This document shows, one piece after another, positions 2,043 through 26,688 of a stretch of DNA of 54,212 nucleotides. Under the pieces are notes generated by a model. That model had not been told where the DNA came from, made no database searches, and worked only from the letters and a program-made list of their open reading frames with translations. The position numbers and the translations under genes are program-made. Source of the stretch: Magnetococcales bacterium (GTDB lineage Bacteria > Pseudomonadota > Magnetococcia > Magnetococcales > JADFYX01); assembly GCA_002753565.1 (NCBI GenBank), contig PEAM01000028.1, positions 1 to 54,212 of the forward strand, written 5' to 3'. Position 1 is the stretch's first letter, and each line of letters opens with the position of its first letter.

Positions 2043-2063
2043 AATCCTAGGTTAAACAAATAG

Positions 2064-2162
2064 TTAGAATTTCAGGTTGCCGCCTATCTTAATGCCTTAC
2101 AAATGAAGGGGGAGTCGATTAGCGAGATTGCCGGCTCTGCTTTGGCGTTTTATAAAAAATAG
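2064..2162 (+). pseudogene. Relic of a TrpD-like glycosyltransferase-3 N-terminal domain
   Basis: An open stretch between TAG codons at 2061 and 2160 reads LEFQVAAYLNALQMKGESIS and continues with EIAGSALAF. This matches the conserved helix of the Glycos_trans_3N domain of anthranilate phosphoribosyltransferase (QxAAFLMALRMKGExxEEIAGAxxAM). No start codon, upstream helix or catalytic domain is present, so it is a fragment of about 32 codons. I infer a remnant of a deleted trpD-type or thymidine-phosphorylase-type gene. It is short, so chance resemblance is not excluded, but several consecutive family-specific positions match. Confidence 0.55.
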
Positions 2163-2189
2163 CTTCTTAATTGACCAATCAAGGAGTCG

Positions 2190-4087: not shown

Positions 4088-4120
4088 CCTAGCACATAAT
4101 AGGATCATTATAGGCTACAG

Positions 4121-4325
4121 ATGACAAACAAAAAAAGTTCCGAAGAGATTAAACAGGAGAGCTTGAAAGGCACAACCCAGAATTTGGAGTGCGCCAGATT
4201 GGTGTCAATTATGTCTGTCGGCAGTAAATGAACCTGGTTCCGGTTCGGTTGTTGAAAATAGTGTGCCATCTAATCCTCCACGAATATCAATGGGTGAATT
4301 AGAAATTTATGTTGAAAAACACTAA
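4121..4325 (+). pseudogene. Possible small frameshifted gene
   Basis: An ATG at 4121 opens 36 codons (MTNKKSSEEIKQESLKGTTQ...) ending at TGA 4229-4231. In the +1 frame a stretch between stops, 4167-4325, reads protein-like: SAPDWCQLCLSAVNEPGSGS followed by VVENSVPSNPPRISMGELE and ending IYVEKH. Joining the two frames near 4188 would give a protein of about 69 residues. I recognise no family. Coding here is suggested only by amino-acid composition and the tidy ending. The rest of 4088-4439 holds nothing else I can name. Confidence 0.3.
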
Positions 4326-4439
4326 AAACAAACGGATAATCAAAACTGGGGGAGTAGATCTACAATAACTCTCATTTTCTGATATTTTGGTCATTGAGGA
4401 TCTTTTTCAGAACAAACAAAGTGGGTGGGGGATGCCTGG

Positions 4440-5177
4440 ATGAAAACGGTTCAAGATTCTTTGGGGGAAGATGCTCCCCTCATCCTGATTGTTGAGGATG
4501 AGAAAGATGTGGTCACACCCATGGAAATAAAGCTTGCCATGGAGGGGTACCAAACCCGCTCCGCTTTGACTGGCAAGTCTGCTTTGACTGAAGCTTTCCG
4601 AGAACCCACTCCTGATCTGATCCTGTTGGATATCATGCTGCCGGATATCTCCGGGCTGGATGTCTGCATGCGCATCCGTGAAGCACCTCAAACCAGTCAG
4701 ATACCCATTATCATGTTAACAGCCAAAGGCGAGGAGATTGACCGGGTGGTGGGATTTGAGGTGGGAGCGGATGATTATCTGGTTAAACCGTTCAGTATCC
4801 GGGAGTTGATCTTACGCATACAGGTGGCGCTAAGGCGTACGATGGGGAGCAGCGATTCCCCCCCCAGAAAAAGTAGTTTTGGTTCTCTAAACGTTAATTA
4901 TGATACTCATCGAGTCCATGTAGAAGGAGAGGAGGTCCTGCTCACGGCTACTGAATTCAAACTCCTCTCCACCTTTATCGAGCGGGCGGGGCGGGTACAG
5001 ACACGAGATATTCTTCTGGATGTGGTTTGGGGAGTACAGTCCTATGTGCAGACCAGAACAGTTGACTCCCATATTAAACAGCTACGCAAAAAATTGGGGC
5101 CAGCCGGGGATTACTTCGAGACAGTCCGGGGCGTAGGCTATCTATTCAATACCCAAGCTGGGAATAAAACCGCATGA
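4440..5177 (+). CDS. OmpR/PhoB-type response regulator
   Basis: A receiver domain (residues about 18-132 of the longer reading) is followed by a winged-helix DNA-binding domain (about 150-245). The acidic pocket is visible in LIVEDE, the phospho-acceptor is Asp69 in LILLDIMLPD, and Thr99 and Lys121 (DDYLVKPF) complete the site. The C-terminus carries LTATEFKLLSTF and VDSHIKQLRKKLG, typical of PhoB-like effector domains. The frame opens with GTG at 4425, but GGGGGA at 4427-4432 lies seven bases before ATG 4440, so I use 4440. It overlaps the kinase gene by ATGA. Nearby Na/Pi transporter genes make phosphate sensing a reasonable guess, not a demonstrated one. Confidence 0.92.
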   Translation: MKTVQDSLGEDAPLILIVEDEKDVVTPMEIKLAMEGYQTRSALTGKSALTEAFREPTPDLILLDIMLPDISGLDVCMRIREAPQTSQIPIIMLTAKGEEIDRVVGFEVGADDYLVKPFSIRELILRIQVALRRTMGSSDSPPRKSSFGSLNVNYDTHRVHVEGEEVLLTATEFKLLSTFIERAGRVQTRDILLDVVWGVQSYVQTRTVDSHIKQLRKKLGPAGDYFETVRGVGYLFNTQAGNKTA

Positions 5178-9541: not shown

Positions 9542-10021
9542 GTGTCTATAAAATCAACCAATAAAGTATTAATCCCCATCGATTTTTCTGATGATAGCCA
9601 AGCGGCAATGGATGAGGGTGTAATATTAGCTAAAATGCTTGGTGCTGAGGCTACTATAATCCATATAATACATGACTCTTTGATTGAACCGGGGATATAT
9701 TTCGATAAAAAGAAGAAAAAAAAGAAACTTCTCAATCAAATAGATGAGGCTGCTCAGGAAAAGTTGGCCGAATATCTCCAAGAAAACGGTGTGATCAAAA
9801 AAGCCAAGGAGTTGGGGGTTAAACTGGATGCTCATTGTCGTCGGGGATTGCCAGCAGCCCAGATTATCCGTGCAATAGAAAAAAAGGATTATGGCTTGAT
9901 TGTTATGGGTAGTAGCGGCCGTACAGGGCTCTCTAATATTCTTCTCGGATCAGTTGCTGAACGGGTCGTACAGCAGTCACCTGTTCCGGTTTTGGTCGTC
10001 AAAAAGAAAAATAAGAAGTAG
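9542..10021 (+). CDS. Universal stress protein UspA family (with lysine-rich insert)
   Basis: A single Usp domain of 159 residues starts at GTG 9542 with AGGAG at 9528-9532. The beginning, VLIPIDFSDDSQAAMDEGV, and the ATP-binding loop GSSGRTGLSNILLGSVAERV (G-x2-G-x9-G-S) are canonical for the nucleotide-binding subgroup. Between beta-2 and the following helix there is a run of seven lysines (FDKKKKKKKLL) encoded by an A-rich tract with eight consecutive A at 9716-9723, a potential slippage site. The stress protein at 14349 has a comparable basic insert, and both sit next to Na/Pi symporters, which suggests a shared adaptor role. Confidence 0.92.
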   Translation: MSIKSTNKVLIPIDFSDDSQAAMDEGVILAKMLGAEATIIHIIHDSLIEPGIYFDKKKKKKKLLNQIDEAAQEKLAEYLQENGVIKKAKELGVKLDAHCRRGLPAAQIIRAIEKKDYGLIVMGSSGRTGLSNILLGSVAERVVQQSPVPVLVVKKKNKK

Positions 10022-10078: not shown

Positions 10079-12211
10079 ATGGAGTCTTCGAATCATTCTT
10101 CATCTTGGTTTCAGCGTAGCTTGTTTGGAATCGGCTCCATCTGGCTTGTGGCCTGTACAGGAATCGCGCTATCCATCGCCACCTTCTGGGTAACCAACCA
10201 TCAGTTGACGATTCACAAACAGCTGGATTTTAAATGGGCCGGCCAGAACCGTTATCGGGCTTTCCAGAAAGAGCTGGGGGACAGTCTGGGGGCGCTGGAT
10301 GAGTTGCGAACATTACTGGTTGGCGTCCCCAACAAGATCACTCAGGAAAATTTTCAGCTCTCCTCTGTTGCCATCATGTCCAACCATGAGGAGATTCTCT
10401 CTTTTGCCTGGATACCCCATGGCAGCAGAGAAAAACAAAAAGAATTTCTGCAAAAGAGCCGTGATACGGGAGAACAATGGGGTTGGGAGCATTTACCGAG
10501 TATGAAGCCATATCTGGAAAAAGCATCTACCAGTGGCGAAATGGTAGCAAGCATCGTTCGATTTGATAACAACCAGGGTCAAAATACACTGTTTGCCGTA
10601 TTTCTTGTCGTATACCCAGGTAGCTTAAAGCCAACGCACTCGACAGTCAGACAGATCACTCCCCTCGGATATGTGGTTGGTATTTACCAACTAGATCAAA
10701 TCGTCACAGCATCACTCGATCCTCTGGAGCCACGGGGAATCGATATATGGATACAGGATCCATTCATGCTGAAGGCTGAAAAGACTCTTTTTCACTATGC
10801 CAGCCGTCTTAGGGGCCAGAAGCAACAACAGACCTCCATAGAAGTCCCACCAATCAGCCATGAGCTCAAGGTCATTGAAACCATAAAGGTGGCAGACCGT
10901 GAGTGGACCTTTACCGCTTTGGCCAACCCCCTGTTTCGCAGTTCTCAGGCTTTCAATGAAGGACCATGGATTCTGTTGATTGAGGGCATTGTCTTTACGG
11001 CGGTCCTCATTCTCTATCTCATTCGCCTGCAAAGTGAGATGCGTAAACGAATGCGGGTCTCTCAGGCTCTAAAGGAGAGTGAGGAACAGTTCCGTAATTT
11101 GTTGGACCACTCTCCGGATATCGTCACGGCTCTGGATAAAAGGGGGCAGACTCTTTTCATCAATCGGCCATTTCCAAACGCCTCGATCAATCATGAGATA
11201 GGAGCAGAATTCATCAATCTTCTACCCCCATCCCTACACCGGAAATATCGACAGGTAATGGAGCAGGCTCTCTCTGACAAAGAAGTAAAAAATTGGCGTT
11301 TTTCCATGCCTGATTTCTCCTGGTGGGACGCAAGGGTCATCCCTATCGACCTGGATCATGGAGAGGTCAAGGTTATGCTCATTATTTCCGATGTGACCCA
11401 GGACCGTATGCTTCATGCTCAGGCCATTCGTAATGCGAGGCTGGCCTCGCTGGGCGTATTGGCCGCCAGTGTTGCCCACGAGATCAATAATCCCAACAGC
11501 GCCATCCAGTTTAACAATGCCATTCTTATGCGTACCTGGGGGGATATTCCTGCGGTTTTAAGACGTTATAGCGACAATATCAGCCAGTTTTCCCTGGGTG
11601 GGATGCCTGCTGAAGAGGCGTTGGAGGCCATTCCCAGACTGATGGCGGGTATCGAGCGCAGCACCAGCCGAATCAAGAAAATTGTCGGCAACCTGAAGCA
11701 TATGGCCAGACAAGACAAAGGGGGGATGGAACAGGAAATCAACATGGGTGAAGTCATCCAGGCCGCCATATCCATCCTGCAAAACCAAGTCAAAAAATAT
11801 ACCGACTTTTGCCATCTCGATCCAGATATGGAGCTGCCAGTCATCCGAGGGAATGCTCAGCAGTTGGAGCAGGTCATCATCAATATTCTGCTCAATGCCT
11901 TACAATCACTCCCCGACCGCTCTCGTCGTGTTCTTCTGGCAACCGCTATCGACGAAACAAAAGAGAATATTTTGATCACTATTCATGATGAGGGGGTCGG
12001 AATGGAAGAAGAGACCATGAAGAATATTCTTGACCCTTTTTTTACCACCAAAGAGACCACTGGTGGGACCGGTTTGGGGCTATCCATCTCTTCGGATATT
12101 ATCTGCAACCATGGTGGAAAAATCAGTTTTGATTCCAAAGTTGGGGAGGGAACTCTGGTCACCATCCGGTTACCGATCATCCCTTCCGTTTTAAGCGGTT
12201 TACAGACATGA
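10079..12211 (+). CDS. CHASE-domain sensor histidine kinase
   Basis: This inner-membrane hybrid-free kinase has TM1 (about 20-45 of the longer reading), a periplasmic CHASE-like domain (about 60-300; FAWIPHGSREKQKEF is typical), TM2 (about 305-325), a PAS domain (about 342-455), then HisKA with His474 (ASVAHEINNPNSAI) and HATPase_c (NILLNALQSLPD; DEGVGM; GGTGLGLSIS). The HE-INNP form of the H-box marks the NtrB-like group that partners sigma-54 regulators, and such a regulator follows with an ATGA overlap. The frame is open from GTG 10058, but GGAGA at 10066-10070 points to ATG 10079. CHASE ligands are varied and unknown here. Confidence 0.9.
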   Translation: MESSNHSSSWFQRSLFGIGSIWLVACTGIALSIATFWVTNHQLTIHKQLDFKWAGQNRYRAFQKELGDSLGALDELRTLLVGVPNKITQENFQLSSVAIMSNHEEILSFAWIPHGSREKQKEFLQKSRDTGEQWGWEHLPSMKPYLEKASTSGEMVASIVRFDNNQGQNTLFAVFLVVYPGSLKPTHSTVRQITPLGYVVGIYQLDQIVTASLDPLEPRGIDIWIQDPFMLKAEKTLFHYASRLRGQKQQQTSIEVPPISHELKVIETIKVADREWTFTALANPLFRSSQAFNEGPWILLIEGIVFTAVLILYLIRLQSEMRKRMRVSQALKESEEQFRNLLDHSPDIVTALDKRGQTLFINRPFPNASINHEIGAEFINLLPPSLHRKYRQVMEQALSDKEVKNWRFSMPDFSWWDARVIPIDLDHGEVKVMLIISDVTQDRMLHAQAIRNARLASLGVLAASVAHEINNPNSAIQFNNAILMRTWGDIPAVLRRYSDNISQFSLGGMPAEEALEAIPRLMAGIERSTSRIKKIVGNLKHMARQDKGGMEQEINMGEVIQAAISILQNQVKKYTDFCHLDPDMELPVIRGNAQQLEQVIINILLNALQSLPDRSRRVLLATAIDETKENILITIHDEGVGMEEETMKNILDPFFTTKETTGGTGLGLSISSDIICNHGGKISFDSKVGEGTLVTIRLPIIPSVLSGLQT

Positions 12212-13641
12212 GTGCTACGACATCCAATACCTTGCCGGTCATTTTAGTGGATGACGAAGAGGAGGTTCTCTTCGGCTCCAGCGTCCTTTTAAAGACCTTC
12301 GGCATCTCCTCCGTGGTAACCATGTCGGATGGTAATGCCTTGCTTCCCTATCTGGCACGTAATGAGTGCGGCGTTGTGGTTCTCGACCTGCTTATGCCGA
12401 AAATATCTGGCCTACAACTACTGCCAGAGATTATTCAGCACTATCCAGAAATCCCGGTCGTGGTGATGACGGCAGCACAGAATGTGGAAACGGCTGTCAC
12501 CTGCATGAAAGAGGGGGCTTTCGACTATCTGGTCAAACCGGTGGAAGAGAGCCGGTTCATCTCCAGCATCAGTCGAGCCATAGAGGTTCGTTCCCTTCGT
12601 AAACAGGTTAATAATCTCAGAGCCTGTTTGCTGGGTGGCCAACGATCCAATAACGGCACATTTTCCGAAATTGTCACAAACCATCCCAATATCGAAGCCA
12701 TATTTCAATATATTCTGGCCCTTGCCCACTCGGATGAGCCGGTATTGATTACGGGAGAGACCGGGGTCGGTAAAGGGTTGTTCGGCAAGGCCATCCATCA
12801 GGCCAGTAAAAGAGAGGGGGAGTTGGTTACGGTCAATGTGGCCGGTTTGGACGACAACATGTTCTCCGACTCCCTATTTGGTCATCAACGAGGGGCTTTT
12901 TCCGGTGCAGACGGTTTGCGTGAAGGGTTTGTCGCCAAAGCAGAGAACGGTTCCCTGTTTTTGGATGAGATCGGTGATCTGACCAAGTCCTCCCAGGTAA
13001 AACTGTTAAGATTGCTCCAGGAAAAAAATTATTATCCCCTTGGCTCCGACCTGCCCCGCCTGAGCAATGCCCGCATCATCACCGCCACCAATCTGGATCT
13101 CAGGCAGTTGATTGCTGAGAACAAATTTCGGCAGGATCTCTATTTCCGGCTCTCCGGTCACTGGATTGAGATCCCTCCTCTACGGGATCGCATAGAGGAT
13201 ATTCCTCTACTATTGGGATTCTTTCTGGATGAAGCGTGCAAAGCCATGAATAAACCGGATCTGGAGCCTCCACCAGAACTTATAACCCTGCTATCCACCT
13301 ATTCGTTTCCCGGCAATGTCAGGGAGATGCGTTCCATGATTTATGATGCGGTAACAAGGCACCGTTCCGGTTCCGTCATCGGTATGAAAAGTTTCAAAAA
13401 AGCCATTCGGGCCAACGCCTTTTCCCTTGAGGCAGACTCAAACCAGGTCAAGGAGCAGATTCAATCCTCCCTGCATACTACAGGCCGCTTTCCAACCTTG
13501 AAACAGGCTGAAAACCTGATTATCCAGGAAGCGTTACGGCAGACCGGTGGGAATCAAGGCATCGCCGCCATGTTACTAGGCGTTTCCCGACCTGCCCTTA
13601 ACCGTCGTCTCATGCGCCTAAAAACAGAGTCTGCCCTATAA
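12208..13641 (+). CDS. NtrC-type sigma-54-dependent response regulator
   Basis: This protein of 477 aa contains three domains: receiver (about 10-125; Asp15/16, phospho-acceptor Asp60 in VVVLDLLMP, Lys110), AAA+ (about 155-385; Walker A GETGVGKG 183-190, Walker B LFLDEIGD, arginine-finger region FRQDLYFRL) and a Fis-type helix-turn-helix (about 435-475; GNQGIAAMLLGVSRPALNRR). The sigma-54-contacting loop is GAFSGA rather than the usual GAFTGA (residues 229-234), a conservative change also known from active members. It is translationally coupled to the CHASE kinase. Targets are likely to have -24/-12 promoters; I found no clear one in the neighbouring intergenic regions. Confidence 0.93.
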   Translation: MSATTSNTLPVILVDDEEEVLFGSSVLLKTFGISSVVTMSDGNALLPYLARNECGVVVLDLLMPKISGLQLLPEIIQHYPEIPVVVMTAAQNVETAVTCMKEGAFDYLVKPVEESRFISSISRAIEVRSLRKQVNNLRACLLGGQRSNNGTFSEIVTNHPNIEAIFQYILALAHSDEPVLITGETGVGKGLFGKAIHQASKREGELVTVNVAGLDDNMFSDSLFGHQRGAFSGADGLREGFVAKAENGSLFLDEIGDLTKSSQVKLLRLLQEKNYYPLGSDLPRLSNARIITATNLDLRQLIAENKFRQDLYFRLSGHWIEIPPLRDRIEDIPLLLGFFLDEACKAMNKPDLEPPPELITLLSTYSFPGNVREMRSMIYDAVTRHRSGSVIGMKSFKKAIRANAFSLEADSNQVKEQIQSSLHTTGRFPTLKQAENLIIQEALRQTGGNQGIAAMLLGVSRPALNRRLMRLKTESAL

Positions 13642-14348: not shown

Positions 14349-14924
14349 ATGATGTTGAAAGATCCGCCAAATGATTCACCGGCTCATTCGGATGAGGTTT
14401 TCTCACTATCCCAAGAGTCCCGGTCAGTGATGGACGGTAAACCGGAAGGTCCCATTGTAATCCCGGTGGATTTCTCATTGGACAGCGTGGAGGCGGTTAA
14501 ACAGGGATATAATATGAGTGTTTCAAGCAAGGAACCGATTCACCTCCTCCACGTTATTCCAGAGTTGGGCGATAAATCCGGTAAAGAGAAGAAAAAAACA
14601 GCTGAAAAAAAACTTCGTAAACAGCGGGATAGGGCCTCTGACCAAATGGCAAAATTTTTGCGCAACAATGCCATTCCTACGGCGTTCAAAAAGGAGGGGA
14701 TAAAATATCACACCTCTTTAGCCAGGGGAGAACCTCTGATCGCAATTTTAGCGAAAGCGGAAAAAGTACGGGCCGGTATCATTATCATGGGTTGCGGTCG
14801 CAACTCAGGCCCTTCATCCAATCTGTTGGGTGTAACTACCGAACGAGTTCTACGTCTGGCACAAAGGCCGGTCATGGTAGTCAAACACCCGCTAGACAAG
14901 AAAAAGACGGAAACCAGGAGATAA
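14349..14924 (+). CDS. Universal stress protein family, extended N-terminus and basic insert
   Basis: A Usp-like protein of 191 aa. The domain starts near residue 36 (IVIPVDFSLDSVEAVKQGYN) after a Ser/Asp-rich leader. A strongly basic insert, KEKKKTAEKKLRKQRDR, follows the second strand in the same place as the seven-lysine insert of the Usp at 9542. The nucleotide-binding loop is less standard (MGCGRNSGPSSNLLGVTTERV: the G-x2-G part becomes GCGRNSG and the final GS is GV), so ATP binding is uncertain. AGGAG at 14334-14338 precedes the ATG by about ten bases. The symporter gene follows after six bases. Confidence 0.85.
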   Translation: MMLKDPPNDSPAHSDEVFSLSQESRSVMDGKPEGPIVIPVDFSLDSVEAVKQGYNMSVSSKEPIHLLHVIPELGDKSGKEKKKTAEKKLRKQRDRASDQMAKFLRNNAIPTAFKKEGIKYHTSLARGEPLIAILAKAEKVRAGIIIMGCGRNSGPSSNLLGVTTERVLRLAQRPVMVVKHPLDKKKTETRR

Positions 14925-14930
14925 AAAATC

Positions 14931-16766
14931 ATGACTATTTTTCAAAGCAGTTGGCAAAAACGCCTTTTGCTAATGGCCATTGTGGCCATGGCAGGGGCAG
15001 CCATGTTTGCCCCCATGATCGCTCAAGCAGGCAGTTCCGGTGGCGGCATTGATTTTTTTACCATTACAATGAAACTGTTCGGTGGGTTGGCCATATTTCT
15101 CTACGGTATGGAGCGGATGGGTGATGCTCTGAAGATCGTAGCCGGGGAGAAGATGAAGCAGATTCTCGGCACCCTGACCACCAACCGTTTCATGGGTCTC
15201 ATCACCGGAGCCATTGTCACCGCCATTATCCAGTCCAGCTCAGTAACGACGGTTCTGCTGGTGGGCTTTGTAACAGCTGACCTGATGTCTCTGTCACAAG
15301 CTATTGGCGTGATCCTTGGTGCGGATATAGGGACTACCATTACCGCCCAGATCGTCGCCTTTAAGGTGACCAAGTATGCCTCTCTTTTGATCGCAGTCGG
15401 TTTTGTCCAGATTTTTACGGCAAAAGATGAGAAGAAAAAGCAGTACGGCTATCTTGTTATGGGCCTTGGCATGATCTTCTTCGGTATGGGTGAGATGAGC
15501 AATGCCATGAAACCCCTGAGAACCTATGAGCCATTCATCGACATGATGAAGAGCGTAGACAATCCGGTTATTGGTATTTTGATCTCTGCGGCCTTTACCG
15601 GTTTGATTCAATCCTCCTCAGCCACCATGGGGGTGATTGTGGCTCTGGCCATGCAGGGTTTGATCTCACTGGAAGGCGGTATCGCTCTGGCCTTTGGTGC
15701 CAACATTGGAACCTGTATGACCGCTGGTCTCGCTGCCATGGGAAAACCCCGTGCTGCGGTTAGAGTTGCTGTGGCTCATGTAACATTCAAAATCGCCGGC
15801 GTTGCCATTGCAGTCTGGTTAATTCCCCAGTTGGCTGACCTCGTTCGTTCCATTTCTCCGATCTATCCTGATTTAGCCGGGCAGGATCGTCTGGCTGCGG
15901 AGGTTCCTCGTCAAGTAGCCAACGCCCACACCATATTCAATGTGGTTATGGCCTTCGCTTTCTTGCCAATCGGCGGTCTCTTTGTTCGCTGGTGCGAGTG
16001 GGTTGTTCCTCCGGCTCCAGAGGGTGACAGCGTGGAAGATGCCATGTCTGGTATTTCCTATACACCAAAATATCTGGATGAAGCTCTGATCACAACACCG
16101 TCTTTGGCTCTAAGCATGGTTCGTCGCGAAGTGAATGTGATGTCCGATATTCTTGAAAAAATGCTTGCCGATATTCCGAATGCCGTCTTCAAGGGTGACC
16201 TGGAAAAAATGAAAGAGTTGGCAAAAATGGATGATCGGGTGGATGAGATTCACCAAGCCATCACCACCTATGTCTCCAAGGTCGGTAGCACAAATCTGCC
16301 TGCTTCGGTTGCTGAAGAGGTTATGACTACCATCACCGCCACCAGTGAGATGGAGAACATCGGTGACATCATAGAAAACAACATGACCCATCTGGCAGAA
16401 GTGTGTGCCACCAACAAGGTTGTCATGTCCGATGAGGCGATTCAAACCTTAACTGACTACCATAGAAAAATATCCTCTGCTTTCAAGGCCTCTGCAACCG
16501 CCTTTATTACCGATAATGAAGAGACAGCGCTGGCCGTTATGGCGATGAAAGATGAGATCAACACCATGGATACCGCCTGTCAAACCAAGCAGATGGATGC
16601 TCTGCAAGGGGAAGGCGAGACCCCTATGGCTGACCTTACCGCTTATACGTTGCAGATGGATATCCGTGAAAATCTGAAACGGATCTACTACCACACCAAG
16701 CGGGTAGCCAAGGTTGTGGCTCGCAGCAAAGAAGCCATCCTGGCTGCTGCTAAAAACAGAGCCTGA
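14931..16766 (+). CDS. Na+/phosphate symporter-like protein with PhoU-like C-terminal domain (copy 2)
   Basis: Paralogue of the protein at 7156-8994, alike in length (611 aa) and architecture: an N-terminal hydrophobic segment ending MIAQAG, two NaPi_cotrans halves with IQSSSVTTVL and IQSSSATMGV, then GADIGT and GANIGT, and a PhoU-like helical tail (about 380-600). Visible differences are concentrated in the PhoU-like part, and the first half has GADIGT instead of GANIGT. It is the last + strand gene of the cluster; its ribosome-binding site (AGGAG near 14916) lies within the end of the usp gene. A strong terminator follows at 16896-16920. Substrate and direction are inferred from the family only. 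Confidence 0.92.
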   Translation: MTIFQSSWQKRLLLMAIVAMAGAAMFAPMIAQAGSSGGGIDFFTITMKLFGGLAIFLYGMERMGDALKIVAGEKMKQILGTLTTNRFMGLITGAIVTAIIQSSSVTTVLLVGFVTADLMSLSQAIGVILGADIGTTITAQIVAFKVTKYASLLIAVGFVQIFTAKDEKKKQYGYLVMGLGMIFFGMGEMSNAMKPLRTYEPFIDMMKSVDNPVIGILISAAFTGLIQSSSATMGVIVALAMQGLISLEGGIALAFGANIGTCMTAGLAAMGKPRAAVRVAVAHVTFKIAGVAIAVWLIPQLADLVRSISPIYPDLAGQDRLAAEVPRQVANAHTIFNVVMAFAFLPIGGLFVRWCEWVVPPAPEGDSVEDAMSGISYTPKYLDEALITTPSLALSMVRREVNVMSDILEKMLADIPNAVFKGDLEKMKELAKMDDRVDEIHQAITTYVSKVGSTNLPASVAEEVMTTITATSEMENIGDIIENNMTHLAEVCATNKVVMSDEAIQTLTDYHRKISSAFKASATAFITDNEETALAVMAMKDEINTMDTACQTKQMDALQGEGETPMADLTAYTLQMDIRENLKRIYYHTKRVAKVVARSKEAILAAAKNRA

Positions 16767-17085: not shown

Positions 17086-18042
17086 TTATTTAAAAGAGCC
17101 TGCGTGGTTAGAGTCAGGGTTGGAGGCTCCCCCTACTCCACTCGACCAGCTCATTTTACCGCTTACCCCTGGACGAAAAAGGCCATCTTGGTTATCAAAC
17201 AGCACTTTTACCTCCATCAGACCGCTAGCCGAGTCCATAACCGGAGAGACAAAAGTGACCGTTCCTTCCCGCTTCTGCCTGCTGGCTCCTGTGCGAATAG
17301 AGAGAACCACTTTTTGTCCGGTCTGGAACCGTCGACCCATGCGCTCTTCCAGATTGGCAACAAAAAAGCTGCTGTCGGCATCGACAAGATGGACCACCGG
17401 CTGATTGGCATCCACACTCTCTCCTTCATCCAGGTATAGCTTGGTAATTACTCCATCAAAAGGGGCCCGCAAAAAACGCCGGTCCAAATTGGCCTTGGCC
17501 ACCTCCAACTCGATGGCTTCGCTGGCTTTGATCAGCTCCAGCCGTTTTCGTTCTGTCACCGCAGCCAAAAGCTCCAACTCTTTCTGCTCCACCACCTCAC
17601 CACTCACTGAACGGCTTTCATTGAAGAGTTTTTTGGTTGATTCCAGTCGTTTTCTAAGTTTTCGCTCCCGAGCCATGGCTCCACGCAGTTCAGCTCGACT
17701 CTTTAAAAGCAGTGTGCGCTGTTCCACCGCTAATTTTTCCAACTGATTTTCCAAATGCAAAAGGATGCTCCCCTTGGTAACCCGCTCTCCTTCTCGAAAA
17801 AAAATCTTGGTAATCCGCCCTTGGACCGGAACACTGAGGTCTACATCGCGTCTGGCTTTGGTGACGCCGGAGAGTTGAAAGCCACTCTCCTCCGGATTAA
17901 ACGGCGCGGGCTCGGTAAGAGCCACGGCAGGAAACAAGAGAGCAGGAAGGATCAACCACCCCAGAAGAAAGCTGGCAGGAGAACGCCAAGGGCTGGGTCG
18001 AATCCCCCTCCTGACAGCAACCACCAACAAGATATTCGCCAT
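17086..18042 (-). CDS. Periplasmic adaptor (HlyD/RND membrane-fusion family)
   Basis: A 318-residue adaptor has an N-terminal membrane anchor or signal (FLLGWLILPALLFPAVAL, residues about 25-43). The first half of the biotinyl-lipoyl domain is VPVQGRITKIFFREGERVTK (about 70-95). It is followed by a coiled-coil hairpin (about 98-165), the second lipoyl half (LRAPFDGVITKLYLDEGESV) and a beta-barrel domain. The layout is that of short RND-type adaptors (AcrA/EmrA size), which link an inner-membrane component to TolC. It is the last gene of the operon, two bases after the TolC-like gene, with a GGGGGGAG ribosome-binding site. It could bridge the TolC-like protein to the M50-HlyD and GAF-HlyD proteins. 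Confidence 0.9.
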   Translation of the reverse strand: MANILLVVAVRRGIRPSPWRSPASFLLGWLILPALLFPAVALTEPAPFNPEESGFQLSGVTKARRDVDLSVPVQGRITKIFFREGERVTKGSILLHLENQLEKLAVEQRTLLLKSRAELRGAMARERKLRKRLESTKKLFNESRSVSGEVVEQKELELLAAVTERKRLELIKASEAIELEVAKANLDRRFLRAPFDGVITKLYLDEGESVDANQPVVHLVDADSSFFVANLEERMGRRFQTGQKVVLSIRTGASRQKREGTVTFVSPVMDSASGLMEVKVLFDNQDGLFRPGVSGKMSWSSGVGGASNPDSNHAGSFK

Positions 18043-18044: not shown

Positions 18045-19652
18045 CTACACTCCCCCCCTCTGTTGTTGTAACTGCGCCATGGCATTGACAACTTGCTCTT
18101 CATCGGGGAAAACCTCTGCCGCACGACGCAGATAGTTGCCAGCCTTTACCCACTTCTGTTGTTGTGACGCACGCTGAGCAAGCCAAAGATAGCGTTCCAA
18201 AACACGCTCAGCCCCCTGCTGTGCAGCAGGGTTATCCCTATCCAGACTCTGAGCAAGGGTAAACTTCTCCAGGGCATTGTTTCCTGGGGGAGCACTCAAG
18301 CGCAACTGTGTCATATCTCCCTCTGCCGCCTCCACCAGCTTTACCGCCAGTATTTTAACCCCTGCCAATGCGGCACGGTTGTCGGGATTCAGCTTGAGGG
18401 CAAAACGATATTTTTCCAGAGCATTTCTTCCGGGGGGAAGGGTTAGATTCATACTTTCCATATCTCTCTCAGCCAACTCGGAGAGTCGTGCTGAAATACG
18501 CTCAACGCCCTGAAACGCCTGGCTGTTGGTTGGATCAAGGGAAAGAACCTGAGTATATTTTTCCAGCGCGTACCCCTCTTTGCCCTGGGTCAGACGATCT
18601 TCCGCAAAATCCCTCTCTGCCTGCTGCAAAAGCTCCTCTACCAAGGGCTCCGAGTGGGGGGAGCCTGCTGGTGCTACGCTTTTTTTACTCATAGGAAGGG
18701 TGGGAGCAGGTTTAGGCGCTGAATCCACCAGAGCAACAGGGGTGGCCACCACCATGGGCTTCAGCGGCAAAACCGCCGGTTGGAGCGACGCTTGATCCAC
18801 CACCTGAGAAACCTGAAGCGTGTTCGCACTCTCCGGTCGTTGATCGGCTTTTTTCAAGGTATCGGCAACTGCTGGGAGAGGGGCCTGTTTCTCCCCGGTC
18901 GTTACCAGAACCGGTTGTTCCAGACCAAATTTTTCAAGCAGGGTTCCCTCGGCAAGCAAGACGCCGTAGCGCGCCTTCTGATAGGCGATATTTTTGCTCA
19001 ACGCCTCCTCTTTGGCCTCAATAAGTGCGGCCTCACGGGCCAACACCAGTTGGCTGTTGCTTTTTCCCGCCTCCAGGCCGCTGAGTTCACTCTCTAGAAG
19101 TCTGATTCTATTTTCCACCACCCGAAACGACTGTTGCCACTGTTTATAGGTGTTATTGACCATACGGATGCTCATATCCAGATTGTTGGTCAAAGCCACC
19201 TCAATCGCGTGCAGATCCAACAGAGCCTGTTTTTCTCGTAGCTTGGCGGCCCGATACTCACTGTTTCCTTTGATACCGCCGACTGGTATACTGAATTCAG
19301 CCCCGATACTCCAGGTGTTATAATCCTCAAACAGAGCAGAACTGATGGTGTTGGGGGTGGTAGGCCCCAATCCGTTCATTGTAAATTCTGCCTTCAAATC
19401 CAACTGAGGCAACTGCTGATTTTGGGCATAGGCTACCCGGATTTCCTCTCGGACTATTTTCATCTTTCGGGAAAGATATTCCGGCTGTCTGACAAAGGCT
19501 GTCTGCAGGCTCTTCTCCAGGTCGAACTGCTGCCTCTCAACCTCGGCCAGAGAGTCTGCCGCCTCCAGCCCCAGGCGGTTTTGCACCACAGAGAGCAGCA
19601 GGGCCTGCCGCACACCGTTTTGGGCAAAACTGACCTCCTGACCCGCAGCCAA
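18045..19652 (-). CDS. TolC-like protein, C-terminal part with TPR-like extension (downstream of an in-frame stop)
   Basis: This open stretch continues in exactly the same frame as the N-terminal part that stops at 19668-19670. Residues 1 to about 240 form the second OEP/TolC repeat (long helices such as FVRQPEYLSRKMKIVREEI, then GAEFSIPVGGIKGNSEYRAA). A Pro/Ala/Val-rich linker follows (about 255-345). The end holds three TPR-like units of about 60 residues built on ALEKYTQVLSLDPTN, ALEKYRFALKLNPDN and ALEKFTLAQSLDRDN, plus a fourth helical pair. If translated separately it would start at a weak TTG (19652) and lack a signal peptide, so it would not reach the periplasm. As one polypeptide with the upstream part it would be about 840 residues, far longer than TolC (about 490). 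Confidence 0.8.
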   Translation of the reverse strand: MAAGQEVSFAQNGVRQALLLSVVQNRLGLEAADSLAEVERQQFDLEKSLQTAFVRQPEYLSRKMKIVREEIRVAYAQNQQLPQLDLKAEFTMNGLGPTTPNTISSALFEDYNTWSIGAEFSIPVGGIKGNSEYRAAKLREKQALLDLHAIEVALTNNLDMSIRMVNNTYKQWQQSFRVVENRIRLLESELSGLEAGKSNSQLVLAREAALIEAKEEALSKNIAYQKARYGVLLAEGTLLEKFGLEQPVLVTTGEKQAPLPAVADTLKKADQRPESANTLQVSQVVDQASLQPAVLPLKPMVVATPVALVDSAPKPAPTLPMSKKSVAPAGSPHSEPLVEELLQQAERDFAEDRLTQGKEGYALEKYTQVLSLDPTNSQAFQGVERISARLSELAERDMESMNLTLPPGRNALEKYRFALKLNPDNRAALAGVKILAVKLVEAAEGDMTQLRLSAPPGNNALEKFTLAQSLDRDNPAAQQGAERVLERYLWLAQRASQQQKWVKAGNYLRRAAEVFPDEEQVVNAMAQLQQQRGGV

Positions 19653-19667
19653 CTCTCGAGCCTTGCG

Positions 19668-19670
19668 TTA
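19668..19670 (-). other. In-frame ochre codon splitting the TolC-like gene
   Basis: The plus strand reads tta at 19668-19670, TAA on the coding strand, between GCA (Ala) and CGC (Arg). The distance from 20570 to 19652 is a multiple of three, so no frameshift is involved. No obvious stop-codon readthrough context (for example CARYYA) follows; the next bases are CGCAAGG. Confidence 0.9.
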
Positions 19671-20570
19671 TGCCAGCCCGGCCTGGGCCTCCAGCACCTC
19701 TGTTTCCGCCATCTGTCCGAGGTTGAACTGCTTTTGATTATCTTGCAGCATTTTTTCAGCCACTCGGACCGAATCCCGGTTTGCCTTGAGTTTCTCCTGG
19801 GCCAGTTGCAAATCCAGATAGGCCTGGATACCATTGAAAGCCGCCTGCATCAGGGTGTTGCGGTAGGTTTGCTCGGCAATGCCACGCTCCTCCTCAGCAA
19901 TGGCAATATTGGCTCGGGTAACCTTGGAACCAAAATTTTTCAATAAGGGTTGAGTCAAGGAGACCCCTATGGCGGTTCTTAGTTCGGAACCGCTAAGAGA
20001 AGGGGTTTGCAGATTGCTGACGATATCTTCAAAAGTATAGTCCAGGTTGAGCTGCGCCCCTGAAGGAACCAAACCGGTGATTCCAGCCGTCAATGTATTG
20101 GTTTTATTGATGTAGTCTATGAGAGAAGAGCGGGCCAGAGCCTCTTCGGAAGCGTTCAGCTCACGAATGGATTTTCTCTCCAGAGAAAAGGATACCGTCG
20201 GATCATAGATGGATCGGGCATTGTTCTCCGACTCGGCAACAATTTGTTTTTCGAGCAGTTGAAAAAGGACTTTCTCATTTCTCTGCTGTATGACCGAAAG
20301 ATACCCCCTCATGGTGAGCTGTAACCGACTCTCCTGGAGTGAATCAAGAAATTCCCCGCTGTTGAGCCAACTGTTTTTCACCGCAACCGAGTCCGGTTCC
20401 ACACTCTCTTCGACCAGGTGAAACAGCTCAGAATGCTTCTTGAGAGAGGACCAGCGTCCCTCCTCTTCTGAAAAAGCTAAAGAGGTCAACACCATACTTC
20501 CGCTCTGTATGGCCATAAAAAACAGCAGTGACAAGGGTAACAAAAAGGGTCTCTTCATTGTAAAATCCAT
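19668..20570 (-). CDS. TolC-like outer-membrane factor, N-terminal part ending at a premature TAA
   Basis: 300 codons with a signal peptide (PFLLPLSLLFFMAIQSGSMV, cleavage around residue 33) and the first TolC repeat: beta-strand segments (GITGLVPSGAQLNLDYTFED; IGVSLTQPLLKNFG, a typical OEP phrase) and the helix leading to EVLEAQAGLA. There a TAA interrupts. The frame continues as RKARELAAG, where relatives of this family commonly have Gln (AxLAQRxA), so a CAA-to-TAA change explains everything. ATG 20570 or 20558 may be the start. The gene lies 71 bases after the SecA-like gene. Without readthrough the product is half a barrel and probably non-functional. Confidence 0.82.
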   Translation of the reverse strand: MDFTMKRPFLLPLSLLFFMAIQSGSMVLTSLAFSEEEGRWSSLKKHSELFHLVEESVEPDSVAVKNSWLNSGEFLDSLQESRLQLTMRGYLSVIQQRNEKVLFQLLEKQIVAESENNARSIYDPTVSFSLERKSIRELNASEEALARSSLIDYINKTNTLTAGITGLVPSGAQLNLDYTFEDIVSNLQTPSLSGSELRTAIGVSLTQPLLKNFGSKVTRANIAIAEEERGIAEQTYRNTLMQAAFNGIQAYLDLQLAQEKLKANRDSVRVAEKMLQDNQKQFNLGQMAETEVLEAQAGLA

Positions 20571-20641: not shown

Positions 20642-22630
20642 CTACATTTTTTCCTTGGAGAAAGAGAGAGACTCTTCCAACCACTTATCGGCCTGCAAAA
20701 CAGCTCGGCGTTGGCGAAACCCCCACCGTTCCGCTCGCCACTGAGTCCAATCCAGGGCGGTCCTGAGCAGCCATTCAGCCCCCGGTCCCCGTATCCGCAG
20801 CCACCCTTGCAAAAAATGGCACACAATATCAGGAAGAAACCGGTGAAACAGAGGGTCCTCCAAACTGAAAAACAGTTGCGCCCAGCCAGGGTCCCCCTGC
20901 CGCCCACTTCGCCCATAGAGCTGCCGGTCCACACGGCTGGATTCGTTGGGTTCCGCCGCAATAACGCACAACCCACCCAGTTGACGAACCTCAGGGCTCA
21001 GCTTGATATCCGTTCCCCGTCCCGCCATATTGGTGGCGATGGTGATCCGCCCTTTTTGCCCAGCCTCGGCAATAATGTCAGCTTCATCCTGGTGCCTGAC
21101 CGCATTTAAGAGTTCGCAAGCATAACCACGCGCCTGAAACTGTTTGGCCAAGGACTCACTGCTCTCAACACTGCGTGTTCCCACCAAAACCGGCGTTCCC
21201 TGCGCATGGATATGGGCAACCCGAGCCACCACCCCCTCCCACTTGGCCTTTTCGCTACGAAAAACCTGCGGTGTGGCCAGCCTCCTCTGAATGGGGCGAT
21301 GGGTCGGAATGGCGAGTACCGCCAGCCCATAGAGACGCCACAACTCCCCTACCGACTCCCGAATCGTCCCGCTCATACCGCAGAGAACAGGAAACAGACG
21401 GAAGAATTTTTGATAGCTAAAACGGGCCATGGTCTCAGCAGGAGGAGATATCTCTACACCCTGGGCCGCTTCCAAGGCCTGATGCAGGCCAATTCCCAGC
21501 GTTCGATTGGGGGTCAATCGCCCCGTCAACTCATCCACCAAAACCACCTTGTCTTCCAGGATGACAAAATGCTTATCCCGCTGATACATCTCCCTGGCCT
21601 GCAGGGCCTGCATGACCAGCTCTCGTCGACGTTCCGCCCCCTTCCACATCCCTGGGAGCTCTTCGGACAATTTTTCCAGGGTGGCGTCTCCCTGTTTGGT
21701 CAGCTTGAGATCTCCCCGTTGGCTACCCACCCGATAATCCCTGTCCCGCTCCAGGAGGGCCGCTACTCGGTTGGCTGTCTGGACCGCCTCAACCAGAACA
21801 GGATTCGCTCGAGGGGAAGAGATGATAAAGGGGATCACCGCTTCATCAATCAAAATACTGTCGGCCTCATCAACAATGGCGGTGTGCAACCCCCGCAACA
21901 CAAACCCCTCTCCCGGGGGGGTTGGCCAGTATAGCAGGCGCTGGATGAGTCGATGTCCCGCCGCGGCTCGCTCCCCCAGCTTGAGGCGGTCACGGAGAAA
22001 ATCTCCCAGCAGCTCTTTGCTGGTGGTATAGACCACATCCTGACCATACTGACGCCGCCGCTCTTTTTGCTCCATGCCATCCACCACCCAGCCAACGCTG
22101 AGGCCACAATAGAGATAGAACGGCTTCATCTCCTCTGCATCCCGTTGTGCCAGATAGTCGTTGGCTGTCAGTAAATGACACGGTTGACCACTCCACCCAG
22201 CCAAAACAGCCGGCAGACAGGCGGTCAGACTCTTGCCCTCCCCGGTCGCCATTTCGGCAAGATAGCCATCATAAAGCGCCAAGGCCCCCATAATCTGGAC
22301 CGGATAGGGCTCCATTCCCAGAGAGCGACGGGCGGCTTCGGCAATCAGGCTGAGAGAGTCGTCCAGCAGCTCTGCCTTGAGACGGCGTTGATGCAGGCGC
22401 AGCTGTCGTGCCTTTCCCTGAAGGGCCGCCTGAAACCTCGCCTCATCCCACTGTTGCAGGGTAAAAGCGGCGGCAACAATGGCTTGTGCCCGTAGGGCAT
22501 AGCGCTTCAACAGTACTTTTCTGCCAGCCCACCGACCGGTTAGCGAGGCAAGCATGACATCCATCCCACTCACCACCGACCGCATGCGGGGTAGCCTGGC
22601 ACTGCGGTAGTCATCGACTGGCAACATCAT
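20642..22630 (-). CDS. SecA-like ATPase, short paralogue
   Basis: A 662-residue DEAD-motor protein with unmistakable SecA motifs: Walker A TGEGKS (129-134, usually GEGKT), Walker B DEADSILIDEA (254-264, DEVDSILIDEA in SecA), the helicase-2 phrase TIATNMAGRGTDIKLS and the arginine-finger motif GRSGRQGDPG (573-582). A preprotein-crosslinking region lies between about 215 and 355. The protein stops about 70 residues after motif VI, so the helical wing, C-terminal linker and zinc finger (SecB/lipid binding) of housekeeping SecA (830-900 aa) are missing. The frame is open to 22684, but ATG 22630 gives an ATGA overlap with the upstream gene and a good AGAGG site. Being in an operon with adaptors and a TolC-like gene, it probably powers export of the giant protein. 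Confidence 0.9.
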   Translation of the reverse strand: MMLPVDDYRSARLPRMRSVVSGMDVMLASLTGRWAGRKVLLKRYALRAQAIVAAAFTLQQWDEARFQAALQGKARQLRLHQRRLKAELLDDSLSLIAEAARRSLGMEPYPVQIMGALALYDGYLAEMATGEGKSLTACLPAVLAGWSGQPCHLLTANDYLAQRDAEEMKPFYLYCGLSVGWVVDGMEQKERRRQYGQDVVYTTSKELLGDFLRDRLKLGERAAAGHRLIQRLLYWPTPPGEGFVLRGLHTAIVDEADSILIDEAVIPFIISSPRANPVLVEAVQTANRVAALLERDRDYRVGSQRGDLKLTKQGDATLEKLSEELPGMWKGAERRRELVMQALQAREMYQRDKHFVILEDKVVLVDELTGRLTPNRTLGIGLHQALEAAQGVEISPPAETMARFSYQKFFRLFPVLCGMSGTIRESVGELWRLYGLAVLAIPTHRPIQRRLATPQVFRSEKAKWEGVVARVAHIHAQGTPVLVGTRSVESSESLAKQFQARGYACELLNAVRHQDEADIIAEAGQKGRITIATNMAGRGTDIKLSPEVRQLGGLCVIAAEPNESSRVDRQLYGRSGRQGDPGWAQLFFSLEDPLFHRFLPDIVCHFLQGWLRIRGPGAEWLLRTALDWTQWRAERWGFRQRRAVLQADKWLEESLSFSKEKM

Positions 22631-24777
22631 GTCAGATACCTCTGCTGCAAAAACTGCCGCAGCTTGATCTCCAACTGACGCCACAAAGGTTGGGCTGGCA
22701 GCGTTACCCGCAGTTTTCCAGCGTGACCATGGAGCAGAGAGAGCCCCTGCCTGTTTTCCAGGTGGGCACGAACCAAGAAGAACGGCTCCAACGACTGTCG
22801 CCCCTGTTTGTCACTGCCGGAAACCGCAATCTCCCCTCCCCCCAGCCATCCCAATGCCGAGGAGGGGAGCTGCTCCCGTTGGAAGGGGATGACCTGATAG
22901 TCGGCAACAGGGATCGTATCAACGGCACGTCCGTTCAAGCGCACCTCCAGACGGGCATGCTCCTGCTCTGCAAACAGAGAGGCGGCCTCCTCCTGAGAGA
23001 CCACAGCAATAAATTGGGTATGACCTTGATCCAGCACCATCCCCATCTGGCTCCCCTTGGCCACCCAGCGGCCCAGGGATTCAACCATCTCCGGTGCCAC
23101 CCAAAGACCCGCCTGCCTGGCACGCACCCTCAAAGCGGCCTCCTGCTGTTGCAACTGTTTCAGCAGCTTGGCGATGGACTCCTTGCGTTTAAGGATTGAG
23201 TCCATCTGAAGCCCCCCTCGACTGTTGGCCATCTGCTCCTGGATCAACACCTGCTCCCACTGGGCGCGTGCATCGAGGATATCCAGAGCCAACTCCCGAT
23301 TTTCCAAGCGAACCAACACCTCTCCTTCTTGGACATGATCTCCGGGTTTGGCAACCCTTTCCACCACCTCTCCCGAGGCCGCCGTCAACACCTGATAATA
23401 GGCCGTCGACTCAGTAACCCCAGGGGCACGAAAGGTGTTGGGGAGGGCGATGAGAGAGCCGCCTGCCAGAATCAAGAGAAGCAGGAGAGCCGTCACGGTA
23501 ACGGCCCGGCCACGGGTGGCACTCAGCCGGGAACTGAAGGCCAGATAGCGTAGCAGCTTAAAGGGGGGAACAACAAACCACATAACCAGCATCATGAGCG
23601 CCATCAAGCCCCCGACAAACAGATAGTGCTCGGAGACAAACAGGATGATGAAGGTGGTAAGAAACACCTTGTAGATGGCCGAGCCAATACCATAAGCCAC
23701 CAACCAGCTCCCCTCTTGGCGAGAGTAGCCCGCCGGTCTCCCCCCCTGGACACCAAAGAGAAACCGCTCGGCCAAATAGTTTAATTGCGCCTGGGCTCTG
23801 GATTGAAGATTGGGAATATCCAGCCAGTCCGAAAGAATAAAGTAGCCATCAAACTTCATGAGAGGGTTGGCGTTGAACACCAACGTGGAGACAGAGGCCG
23901 TAAACATCATGTTGTAGGCGATGGTATGGAGAATACCCGGTGCGGAGTAGACCCAGGCAAAAGCGCAGAGAGCGGCGATAAAAAGCTCAAACATCATGCC
24001 GGCCGAGCCAACCAGTATCCTCTGCCAACGACTGCGAAAACTCCAACTTGCCGTGGCGTCGACAAAGGGCATGGGAGTAAAAAGTATAAACAGAACCCCT
24101 GCCGTATGAACCTCACCGCCAAAATGTTTGCAGCTTGCGGCATGTCCGAATTCGTGGATCCATTTGGTCAGAACCATGCCGACATAGAGCAGAATCAAGT
24201 TATCCGGTGCCAGAACAGAGCTGGCCTCATAGCTCAACGCCTCCAGGCGAGGCAGAAGAAGCGCCCCAGCCACAAGGATGGTTGCCAACCAGATAAGCAG
24301 CCCCCCACGACTAAACAGCGGGCGAAAAAAGGGATAAACCCGGTCAAGCCAGGGGTTAGGGTCCAGCAGGTTGATGCGTAACGACAAAAAACTGAACAGC
24401 TTGGAGCGCTGCTGCCGTTTTTTGCTCTTAACCTGTTTGGCCAACAGCTTGGCACTGTCGGTAGGGGTATCGAAATAGAGCAGGTTATCGTTATTAAACT
24501 GGGTCAGCAACTGCAACACCGCCACCTGACCTGGTGCTGTGTCCGGGTTGGCATCAAGACACTCCTGCCAGACCTCATCGACGGTCCGGGAGAGGCTTAA
24601 GCGAGAGAGAAAGGCGTAGGCGCCCGGACTGAGACGGAAAAAAGCATTGTTGAACACATCGTGAAGCAGATACCACCACTGACCACGAAACCGCTGTTTG
24701 CGTACCTGTACCGTAGGGCGCAGCGCCGTGCGAATAGAGGCAACTCGATACCAGGACTCACTGAATGTGCCGGCCAT
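22627..24777 (-). CDS. M50 metalloprotease-like membrane protein fused to a HlyD adaptor
   Basis: 716 residues. An N-terminal PqqD-like segment (about 25-105; FRLSPGAYAFLSRL, DEVWQ) precedes a multi-pass domain with the site-2-protease zinc motif HEFGH (His208-Glu209-His212) and the second motif NPLMKFDGY (304-312, the NPxxxxDG third-ligand site). After about eight TM segments, a last TM near residue 430-450 leads to a lipoyl-like domain (SGEVVERVAKPGDHVQEGEV, near 470), a helical hairpin and a barrel. Relatives are annotated as peptide zinc metalloprotease/HlyD proteins. Both metal motifs are intact, so it may cleave a membrane-embedded substrate or simply form a channel platform. ATG 24777 follows AGGGGGGAG and is nine bases after the GAF-HlyD stop. 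Confidence 0.88.
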   Translation of the reverse strand: MAGTFSESWYRVASIRTALRPTVQVRKQRFRGQWWYLLHDVFNNAFFRLSPGAYAFLSRLSLSRTVDEVWQECLDANPDTAPGQVAVLQLLTQFNNDNLLYFDTPTDSAKLLAKQVKSKKRQQRSKLFSFLSLRINLLDPNPWLDRVYPFFRPLFSRGGLLIWLATILVAGALLLPRLEALSYEASSVLAPDNLILLYVGMVLTKWIHEFGHAASCKHFGGEVHTAGVLFILFTPMPFVDATASWSFRSRWQRILVGSAGMMFELFIAALCAFAWVYSAPGILHTIAYNMMFTASVSTLVFNANPLMKFDGYFILSDWLDIPNLQSRAQAQLNYLAERFLFGVQGGRPAGYSRQEGSWLVAYGIGSAIYKVFLTTFIILFVSEHYLFVGGLMALMMLVMWFVVPPFKLLRYLAFSSRLSATRGRAVTVTALLLLLILAGGSLIALPNTFRAPGVTESTAYYQVLTAASGEVVERVAKPGDHVQEGEVLVRLENRELALDILDARAQWEQVLIQEQMANSRGGLQMDSILKRKESIAKLLKQLQQQEAALRVRARQAGLWVAPEMVESLGRWVAKGSQMGMVLDQGHTQFIAVVSQEEAASLFAEQEHARLEVRLNGRAVDTIPVADYQVIPFQREQLPSSALGWLGGGEIAVSGSDKQGRQSLEPFFLVRAHLENRQGLSLLHGHAGKLRVTLPAQPLWRQLEIKLRQFLQQRYLT

Positions 24778-24786: not shown

Positions 24787-26688
24787 CTACCACCAGACCA
24801 GCATACGCAGAAACTCAACCGTACGGTGGGTAAAAATCCAGATAATCCGCCGCTGGCCCACATCCAACTTGACCACGCCACTCATACCAGGCCGCCACCA
24901 ATCCGCCGTCTCGGTTGCCTTGATCTCGGCACGAACCAAAAAAACATTACGGCCATCCCGCACCTCCGCCACCGGGTTGATACGCGCCACCCGAATGAGG
25001 TAATACTGATCAGGTCGACCAATAAACGCAATCTCTCCGTCCATACCAACCCGAATCTCGTGGATATCCCGCTCATCCACATCGATCATGACATGCATTT
25101 GGGTTAGAGAGGCAACCCGAAACAGGGGGTCGCCACGACGCACCGGAGCACCGAGAAGTTTTTGCAAATCCCCCTCCACAATGATCCCTGCCATGGGGGC
25201 TCGGATGTGAGCCCTTTCGATCTGATAGGCGATTCGGCCATGCTTTGCCCTCATCTGGGTTTGCATGGCCTGAGCAATACGCATTTCGGCCAGGGCCCCC
25301 TCACTCCGGGCCTTCTCTGCTTCCAGGGCATAGCGGCTGATCTCCGCCAGGGTTGAACTCTCCTCCAGTTGCAGCTCCCGGCTATCCAGAGTGGCCAGAG
25401 TACGGTTTTTGGTTACCCGATCCCCCTCTTTGACCACAACCTCCTCGATAAAACCATCAAAGGGGGCTGGCAGGGTGTAGCTGTCATCGGTTTTCAACAA
25501 AAAGGGGGCCTCCACCCGGTAGGGCCAGAAAGAGAGCAGCGAAAAGAGCAGAAGAAGCGTGCCCAGAACACCCAAAAACTTGACAACAACATGTCCCCGC
25601 CCCCAAAGAGGTGCCGTAAGGTCGGTTAAAAAATCAACAACCCTGGCACCCATCCAGAGATCGGCTTTTTTTAGCTCTAACAGACGCAGTACCGTGTGAT
25701 CGGCAAACAGGCGCAGACTCCAGACATCAAACTCGCTAAAGGGTGCCCCTCTCCGTTCACAGGTCAACGCCCCCACCTGGGTTCCTCCGTGGCGCAGAGG
25801 CAGGGAGACCAGGTATTGCAAAGAGCGCTCCTGGGCATAGCTGCCGTGAGCAAGGGTGATTTCACTCCGCTGAGGGTCGGGAGGCCAGAGAATCTCTGCA
25901 TCCTGATCCAGAGACTCTTCCATCGCCGACTCCAGAGACTGGGCCGTGACCATCTTTCGGTCAAACTTGACCATATGGCTGATGGATTTCAGCTCGACAT
26001 ACCCCTCCTCATCCAACCAACCCAATCCAACTTGATTACACTCGAAACGGGTTGCCAACTCATTGCAGAGGGTCAGGGTGACCTGAGAGAAGGTTTTGTC
26101 CACCTGCAACCGACCAATCAGGTCTAACACCTCAGCAATACGCACCACATCCCGACGGCTTTGATGATACTCACGGCTCTGCTGATAAAGCGCCGGGATA
26201 TCCGCCACCAACTTCAGGCGATAGACCCACTCCTGCCCCTCCTCGCCGGTTTTCAATGGGTATCGTGGCACCAAAAAAAGCACCACATCCGGCTGTCCGG
26301 GACCAATATTCATCCGCAGAAGCAGCAGTCCGGTTTTGAACAGCCCCCCTTTGGCCCCTGCCAACTCCAGCACCAACCCCTCGCGAATGGTCCGATCCAG
26401 AAGAGCCTTGGGCGGCAGAAGATTCTCCCGAACACCACGGGCCCCCCCATGCCACAACCGCAGAGTCTGCCACGGCACCTCCGCATCCCCTTGGCGAATC
26501 AGGATGCCGCTCTGAATCGCCACACACAGCCCGGCCACCCCGGTCAGATAGTGGCCCCAGAAGGCATCAGGGGGACCAGTAAAGCGCCTCAGTTCGGTCA
26601 GTTGGGCAATACATCGGTCCACACTCCCCCGACGATCCCCTCCCTCCCGATTATCCGTGACGGATTGATCTTTCAAACCCACCGTCAA
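24787..26688 (-). CDS. GAF domain-TM-HlyD adaptor fusion
   Basis: 633 residues: a cytoplasmic N-terminal half with a GAF domain (about 185-335; LATRFECNQVGLGWLDEEG, LVSLPLRHGGTQVGALTCER) and possibly a degenerate one before it (about 45-170). One TM follows (367-388), then a periplasmic adaptor with split lipoyl domain (LPAPFDGFIEEVVVKEGDRV; IRAPMAGIIVEGDLQ), short helical hairpin and beta-barrel. The start is a TTG in a TTGA overlap with the stop of the giant gene (26685-26688); GTG 26682 is an alternative. Overlap with the giant gene implies one transcript and coupled translation. The GAF domain may tie export activity to a cytosolic ligand. No enzymatic domain is present. Confidence 0.88.
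   Translation of the reverse strand: MTVGLKDQSVTDNREGGDRRGSVDRCIAQLTELRRFTGPPDAFWGHYLTGVAGLCVAIQSGILIRQGDAEVPWQTLRLWHGGARGVRENLLPPKALLDRTIREGLVLELAGAKGGLFKTGLLLLRMNIGPGQPDVVLFLVPRYPLKTGEEGQEWVYRLKLVADIPALYQQSREYHQSRRDVVRIAEVLDLIGRLQVDKTFSQVTLTLCNELATRFECNQVGLGWLDEEGYVELKSISHMVKFDRKMVTAQSLESAMEESLDQDAEILWPPDPQRSEITLAHGSYAQERSLQYLVSLPLRHGGTQVGALTCERRGAPFSEFDVWSLRLFADHTVLRLLELKKADLWMGARVVDFLTDLTAPLWGRGHVVVKFLGVLGTLLLLFSLLSFWPYRVEAPFLLKTDDSYTLPAPFDGFIEEVVVKEGDRVTKNRTLATLDSRELQLEESSTLAEISRYALEAEKARSEGALAEMRIAQAMQTQMRAKHGRIAYQIERAHIRAPMAGIIVEGDLQKLLGAPVRRGDPLFRVASLTQMHVMIDVDERDIHEIRVGMDGEIAFIGRPDQYYLIRVARINPVAEVRDGRNVFLVRAEIKATETADWWRPGMSGVVKLDVGQRRIIWIFTHRTVEFLRMLVWW

Follow-up and report, generated by a model that had tools for sequence, protein, structure and literature searches.

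A single in-frame TAA interrupts the TolC-like gene of an apparent giant-protein export operon in a Magnetococcales bacterium

The interrupted gene and its operon

The window analyzed here, the whole 54,212-nucleotide stretch of DNA, is one entire contig (C2) of a 3.87-Mb Magnetococcales genome assembled in 92 contigs. On its minus strand, the frame of a TolC-like gene runs from position 20570 to 18045 for 841 codons before a TAG, and its sole inner stop is a TAA at codon 301, which reads as TTA on the plus strand; past this TAA, the frame stays open for 540 codons. The first-pass annotation had described a TAA that splits a TolC-like gene whose halves read in one frame as a coherent OEP protein, and both the coordinates and the reading are borne out by the sequence, its translation, and profile searches. 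The Pfam OEP match spans the TAA (residues 105 to 323; E value, 2.7e-25), OEP is also matched by each half alone, and a profile search of the genome flagged the OEP domain place of the split gene with "1 TAA" inside. Because the Pfam match crosses the TAA and the nearest ortholog aligns gap-free across the site, sequence comparison identifies the two OEP halves as one gene, not a chance juxtaposition of two open reading frames (ORFs). The gene family is OEP and the present allele is interrupted: the TAA places the two OEP repeats in separate ORFs, not in one polypeptide. The score to the type I secretion channel model TIGR01844 was 85 bits, below the curated cutoff of 225.

The TolC-like gene belongs to a minus-strand operon (window positions 17086 to 54200; Table 1) that appears, from its gene content, to encode an export system combining a SecA-like ATPase with M50-HlyD and TolC-like proteins. 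No ABC transporter gene was seen among the operon genes, and a secretion system that joins a SecA-like motor to a TolC-type exit would have an unusual architecture; no description of a SecA/M50/HlyD/giant-protein operon was found in the literature that we searched. The operon recurs in Magnetococcales, Verrucomicrobia, Desulfuromonadales, Betaproteobacteria, Planctomycetes, Fibrobacteres, and other groups. Giant ORFs adjoining it at loci L135, L160, L175, L184, and L162 carry an N-terminal LEPR-XLL motif (NF012209), and this association suggests that the operon exports or processes LEPR-XLL proteins. In the window, the frame of the giant ORF is still open at the contig end (54212); the earlier claim that all other operon genes remain intact therefore holds for the remaining listed genes, all of which are open, and can be assessed for the giant gene only up to that end.

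Table 1. Features of the interrupted TolC-like gene and the surrounding operon
Feature	Position	Strand	Evidence
In-frame TAA, codon 301 of the TolC-like gene	19668..19670	-	Sequence; translation; "1 TAA" in OEP domain place
Whole TolC-like gene: OEP repeats 1 and 2, C-terminal TPR-like repeats; 841 codons, TAG end	18045..20570	-	Pfam OEP across the stop; intact 863-aa ortholog; ortholog model matching TolC
First open part, 300 aa: N-terminal region, apparent signal sequence (by eye), most of OEP repeat 1	19668..20570	-	ORF list; Pfam
Open part after the stop (540 codons), holding the end of OEP repeat 1, then OEP repeat 2, a linker, and TPR-like repeats	18045..19667	-	ORF list; Pfam; ortholog alignment
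HlyD-type periplasmic adaptor, open; final operon gene	17086..18042	-	Pfam HlyD_D23/HlyD_3; RND_mfp
SecA-like ATPase of 680 aa; the housekeeping SecA is a separate gene, on contig C49	20642..22684	-	Pfam SecA_DEAD; genome search
M50-type metalloprotease fused to an HlyD-like domain, open	22627..24777	-	Pfam Peptidase_M50; RND_mfp; NCBIfam daptide_HExxH below cutoff
GAF-HlyD protein, open	24787..26688	-	Pfam GAF and HlyD
Giant repeat-rich ORF, at least 9,171 aa, presumed exported substrate, 5' end cut by contig end	26685..54200	-	ORF list

Two further observations concern genes outside this operon. On contig C77 of this genome (positions 426 to 5982), another M50-like gene lies close to a second OEP gene; the pair may represent a related export system that lacks the SecA-like ATPase. 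The window itself also contains two similar Na/Pi-cotransporter-like genes (7156 to 8994 and 14931 to 16766), with a universal-stress-protein-like gene near each (9542 to 10021 and 14349 to 14924, respectively); all were named by eye from sequence.

The stop site among relatives and in the channel fold

The nearest ortholog is found in a Magnetococcales bacterium of the same genus (isolate nwagbin5), where an uninterrupted OEP-TPR gene of 863 aa lies on contig C184, with the same gene order as the window: end of the giant gene, GAF-HlyD, M50-HlyD, SecA-like, OEP-TPR, and HlyD. Identity between the two genes is 56% before the stop and 54% after it, with no gap at the site, and nonsynonymous change is likewise 0.29 before and 0.31 after; synonymous sites are saturated and uninformative on relaxation. 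The ortholog carries Lys at the stop site, which is variable among 26 aligned distant relatives (Leu in 6, Arg in 4, Asn in 3, Lys in 2, Gln in 1, and others). Gln had been thought common at this position, and a CAA-to-TAA transition had been proposed on that basis; since the nearest ortholog has Lys and Gln occurs in only 1 of the 26 at an unconserved site, this view of the original codon loses its support. No aligned relative has a stop at the site, and the inner stop is thus absent from orthologs, as in a nonsense pseudogene. We also considered a recurrent split, suggested by inner stops in other relatives, and rejected it: among the readable alignments there was none at the site or in the channel domain, the one inner stop seen in a relative falling at query position 563, beyond that domain.

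The wider distribution of the operon was surveyed in a genome collection. A first scan with the OEP protein as the query gave no matches, and a scan with an M50-HlyD alignment recovered 80 loci from many phyla, whose ORFs were assigned by profile searches to five operon gene types. This yielded 247 near-complete operon genes (39 OEP, 61 SecA-like, 28 HlyD, 42 GAF-HlyD, and 77 M50). No split OEP gene was found beside the 39 full-length ones at these loci in named genomes. Elsewhere in the operon, lone in-frame stops were seen in two genes against the 247 complete ones: a TAG in a SecA-like gene (L188, positions 13313 to 13315) and a TAA in a GAF-HlyD gene (L171, positions 1190 to 1192), both in metagenome-assembled genomes. 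Lone stops this infrequent, and scattered over different genes, are what sporadic mutation or errors in draft assemblies would produce, and the operon loci show no recurrent or conserved stop. Because the same-genus ortholog is whole and none of the 39 OEP genes is split, the TAA at codon 301 is, as far as these sequences indicate, private to this assembly.

The position of the stop within the channel was mapped with a structural model of the intact ortholog (mean pLDDT, 76.8, and >90 through most of the channel). This model, which is that of the ortholog and not of the window product, has the TolC fold: it matches TolC structures with E values down to 7e-21, including Escherichia coli TolC (PDB 1ek9; E value, 4e-18; target TM score, 0.69). 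The stop aligns with residue 163 of E. coli TolC and with ortholog residue 273, within a modeled helix (residues 261 to 296) that follows a long helix (residues 192 to 255). Alignment and model together place the end of the 300-residue product inside the return helix of OEP repeat 1, so that the bulk of this helix would be missing along with all of repeat 2. Because it is truncated in the return helix of the first repeat, the fragment should not form a TolC channel, a loss of function that we infer from anatomy.

Base error, readthrough, and restart

A nonsense allele that is truly present in the organism has one close rival, in which the TAA is a one-base sequencing, assembly, or strain-mixture consensus error. 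The TAA is the only defect in the gene, all of its partner genes are open, and no second stop, frameshift, or trace of relaxed selection accompanies it as independent evidence of decay; these points favor a base error. Against it, the stop site is far from the contig ends and outside homopolymers and repeats, and the rest of the contig shows no such flaw: a coding ORF of about 27.5 kb runs without a stop, and the other listed genes are open. In genome searches, inner stops were absent from 149 of 150 response-regulator places, all 44 ABC-ATPase places, and all 8 other OEP genes. The TAA is therefore explained neither by a changed genetic code nor by an assembly with errors throughout. The sole response-regulator exception is a lone TAG at positions 25 to 27 of L131 (contig C33 of this genome, 3 kb long), some 25 bases short of the contig edge; it is probably an assembly edge error and counts toward a base error in the channel gene as well, as does the occurrence of both other lone operon stops in metagenome-assembled genomes, that of L171 at a coverage of 3.4. 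The assembly is good but not perfect, and base errors do occur in it. Weighing these points, we regard a base error as a serious contender that falls somewhat short of even odds, and the balance between it and a real nonsense allele as roughly even.

The response-regulator gene on contig C33 is closely similar to the window gene at 12208 to 13641, and a contaminant strain is a possible alternative source for it; contamination of the genome is 3.5%, a figure that also weighs against a real nonsense allele.

If the TAA is real, it might still be partly read through by a near-cognate tRNA, giving low levels of full-length channel and tuned expression. The long downstream frame is conserved, which speaks for this scenario, and Belinky et al. 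(2021, PMC7918605) report that bacteria widely carry in-frame stops under purifying selection. On the other side, the stop is common to no relative, and there is therefore no conservation to indicate use. No TTA, CTA, or TCA anticodon was present among the 44 tRNAs read by ARAGORN (45 tRNA matches in the genome; 150 of 169 first-look candidates scored), and the suppressor-tRNA survey proposed in the first-pass annotation thus came out negative. The genome encodes two full-length release-factor-like proteins (frames of 351 and 363 aa), taken to be RF1 and RF2, and TAA ends 5 of the 18 listed window genes. The RNA after the stop is less stable than most of its shuffles (z of about +1) and shows no stimulatory structure. 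UAA is, moreover, generally the tightest bacterial stop. None of the marks of programmed readthrough or recoding (a conserved stop, a suppressor tRNA or altered stop use, or a stimulatory RNA structure) was found here, and we consider readthrough improbable. A narrower version, in which the TAA is maintained as a leaky switch whose rare readthrough would hold the channel at a low dose and so limit costly export of the giant protein at the cell surface, perhaps in a mixed population where the TAA is one allele, is more doubtful still.

Three mechanisms were considered and set aside. No suppressor tRNA was found among the anticodons read, and an altered genetic code was rejected on the RF1/RF2-type genes and the other window genes that TAA terminates. 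Phase variation based on repeats or inversion was rejected on the ground that the stop motif occurs once; a 15-nt inverted repeat with 160 nt between its arms flanks the stop site and is taken as chance, there being no further sign of inversion.

The gene might instead work as two polypeptides, with translation restarting past the stop and the halves assembling. The stop divides the gene close to where the two OEP repeats meet, and a TTG six codons past the stop is preceded by GAGAG, yet this GAGAG touches the 5' side of the TTG and leaves no spacing for a ribosome-binding site. None of the starts after the stop has a well-spaced ribosome-binding site (spacing judged by eye). A restart product would also lack a signal sequence (likewise judged by eye) and would not reach the periplasm, and no relative has the split form. 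We therefore regard a two-piece channel as very unlikely; there is little in favor of either it or readthrough.

Interpretation and comparison with known systems

The explanation that we favor, with a probability of roughly 0.5, is that a private nonsense substitution broke the TolC-like channel gene in this lineage, or in part of its population, and left the rest of the giant-protein export operon intact. Ribosomes would stop at codon 301, the 300-residue product would lack the second half of a trimer-forming channel and lose function, and the dedicated export route would probably be inactive, barring replacement by one of eight other OEP channels in the genome. Measured against the divergence from the nearest sequenced relative, the change would be recent: the 540 downstream codons have stayed open, and the ortholog matches them and the upstream codons equally well. 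It had been proposed that the loss was very recent if real, which is plausible; the best reading is an ordinary nonsense allele, recent or polymorphic. The first-pass annotation had listed recent inactivation, readthrough or suppression, and base error as its options; the first and last remain the leading ones, and the tRNA and release-factor surveys make the second unlikely. Ordinary pseudogene formation or assembly error, not a new mechanism, is most likely.

Substitution by another outer-membrane channel, such that export continues despite a real TAA, has a very small chance of being correct. Eight other OEP genes of the genome are intact, one of them near the second M50-like gene on contig C77, and E. 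coli TolC serves many exporters. Against replacement, the two genome matches to the C-terminal TPR region elsewhere both lie away from OEP places, and an operon-encoded OEP is kept at most loci with enough sequence.

The stop alone matters little, because draft genomes commonly contain genes broken at a single base, whether truly or by artefact; the SecA/M50/HlyD/TolC operon is more interesting than the stop itself. If the TAA is real, the strain would be a natural mutant without the channel of an uncharacterized export system that spans many phyla, and it could show what the channel is needed for.

The survey of Belinky et al. (2021, PMC7918605) found in-frame stops to be widespread among bacteria and for the most part short-lived, with lifetimes on the scale of population polymorphism, and cautioned that many of them are artefacts. 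The window gene resembles the young pseudogenes of that survey (PMC7918605) in having one in-frame stop in an otherwise coherent gene, but there artefacts were excluded through stops shared by several genomes, whereas here the stop is seen in one assembly only. The operon itself compares with the LEPR-XLL giant-protein loci (NF012209), several of which have the same SecA/M50/GAF-HlyD operon and an adjacent giant ORF; in the window, the N terminus of the giant ORF is cut by the contig end, and any such motif would lie outside the sequence. With TolC/OEP channels (PF02321; E. coli TolC, 1ek9) the gene shares two OEP repeats, which lie across the stop, and the match of the ortholog model; unlike TolC, it has a linker and C-terminal TPR-like repeats, is interrupted, and sits with a SecA-like ATPase and an M50-HlyD protein instead of an ABC transporter.
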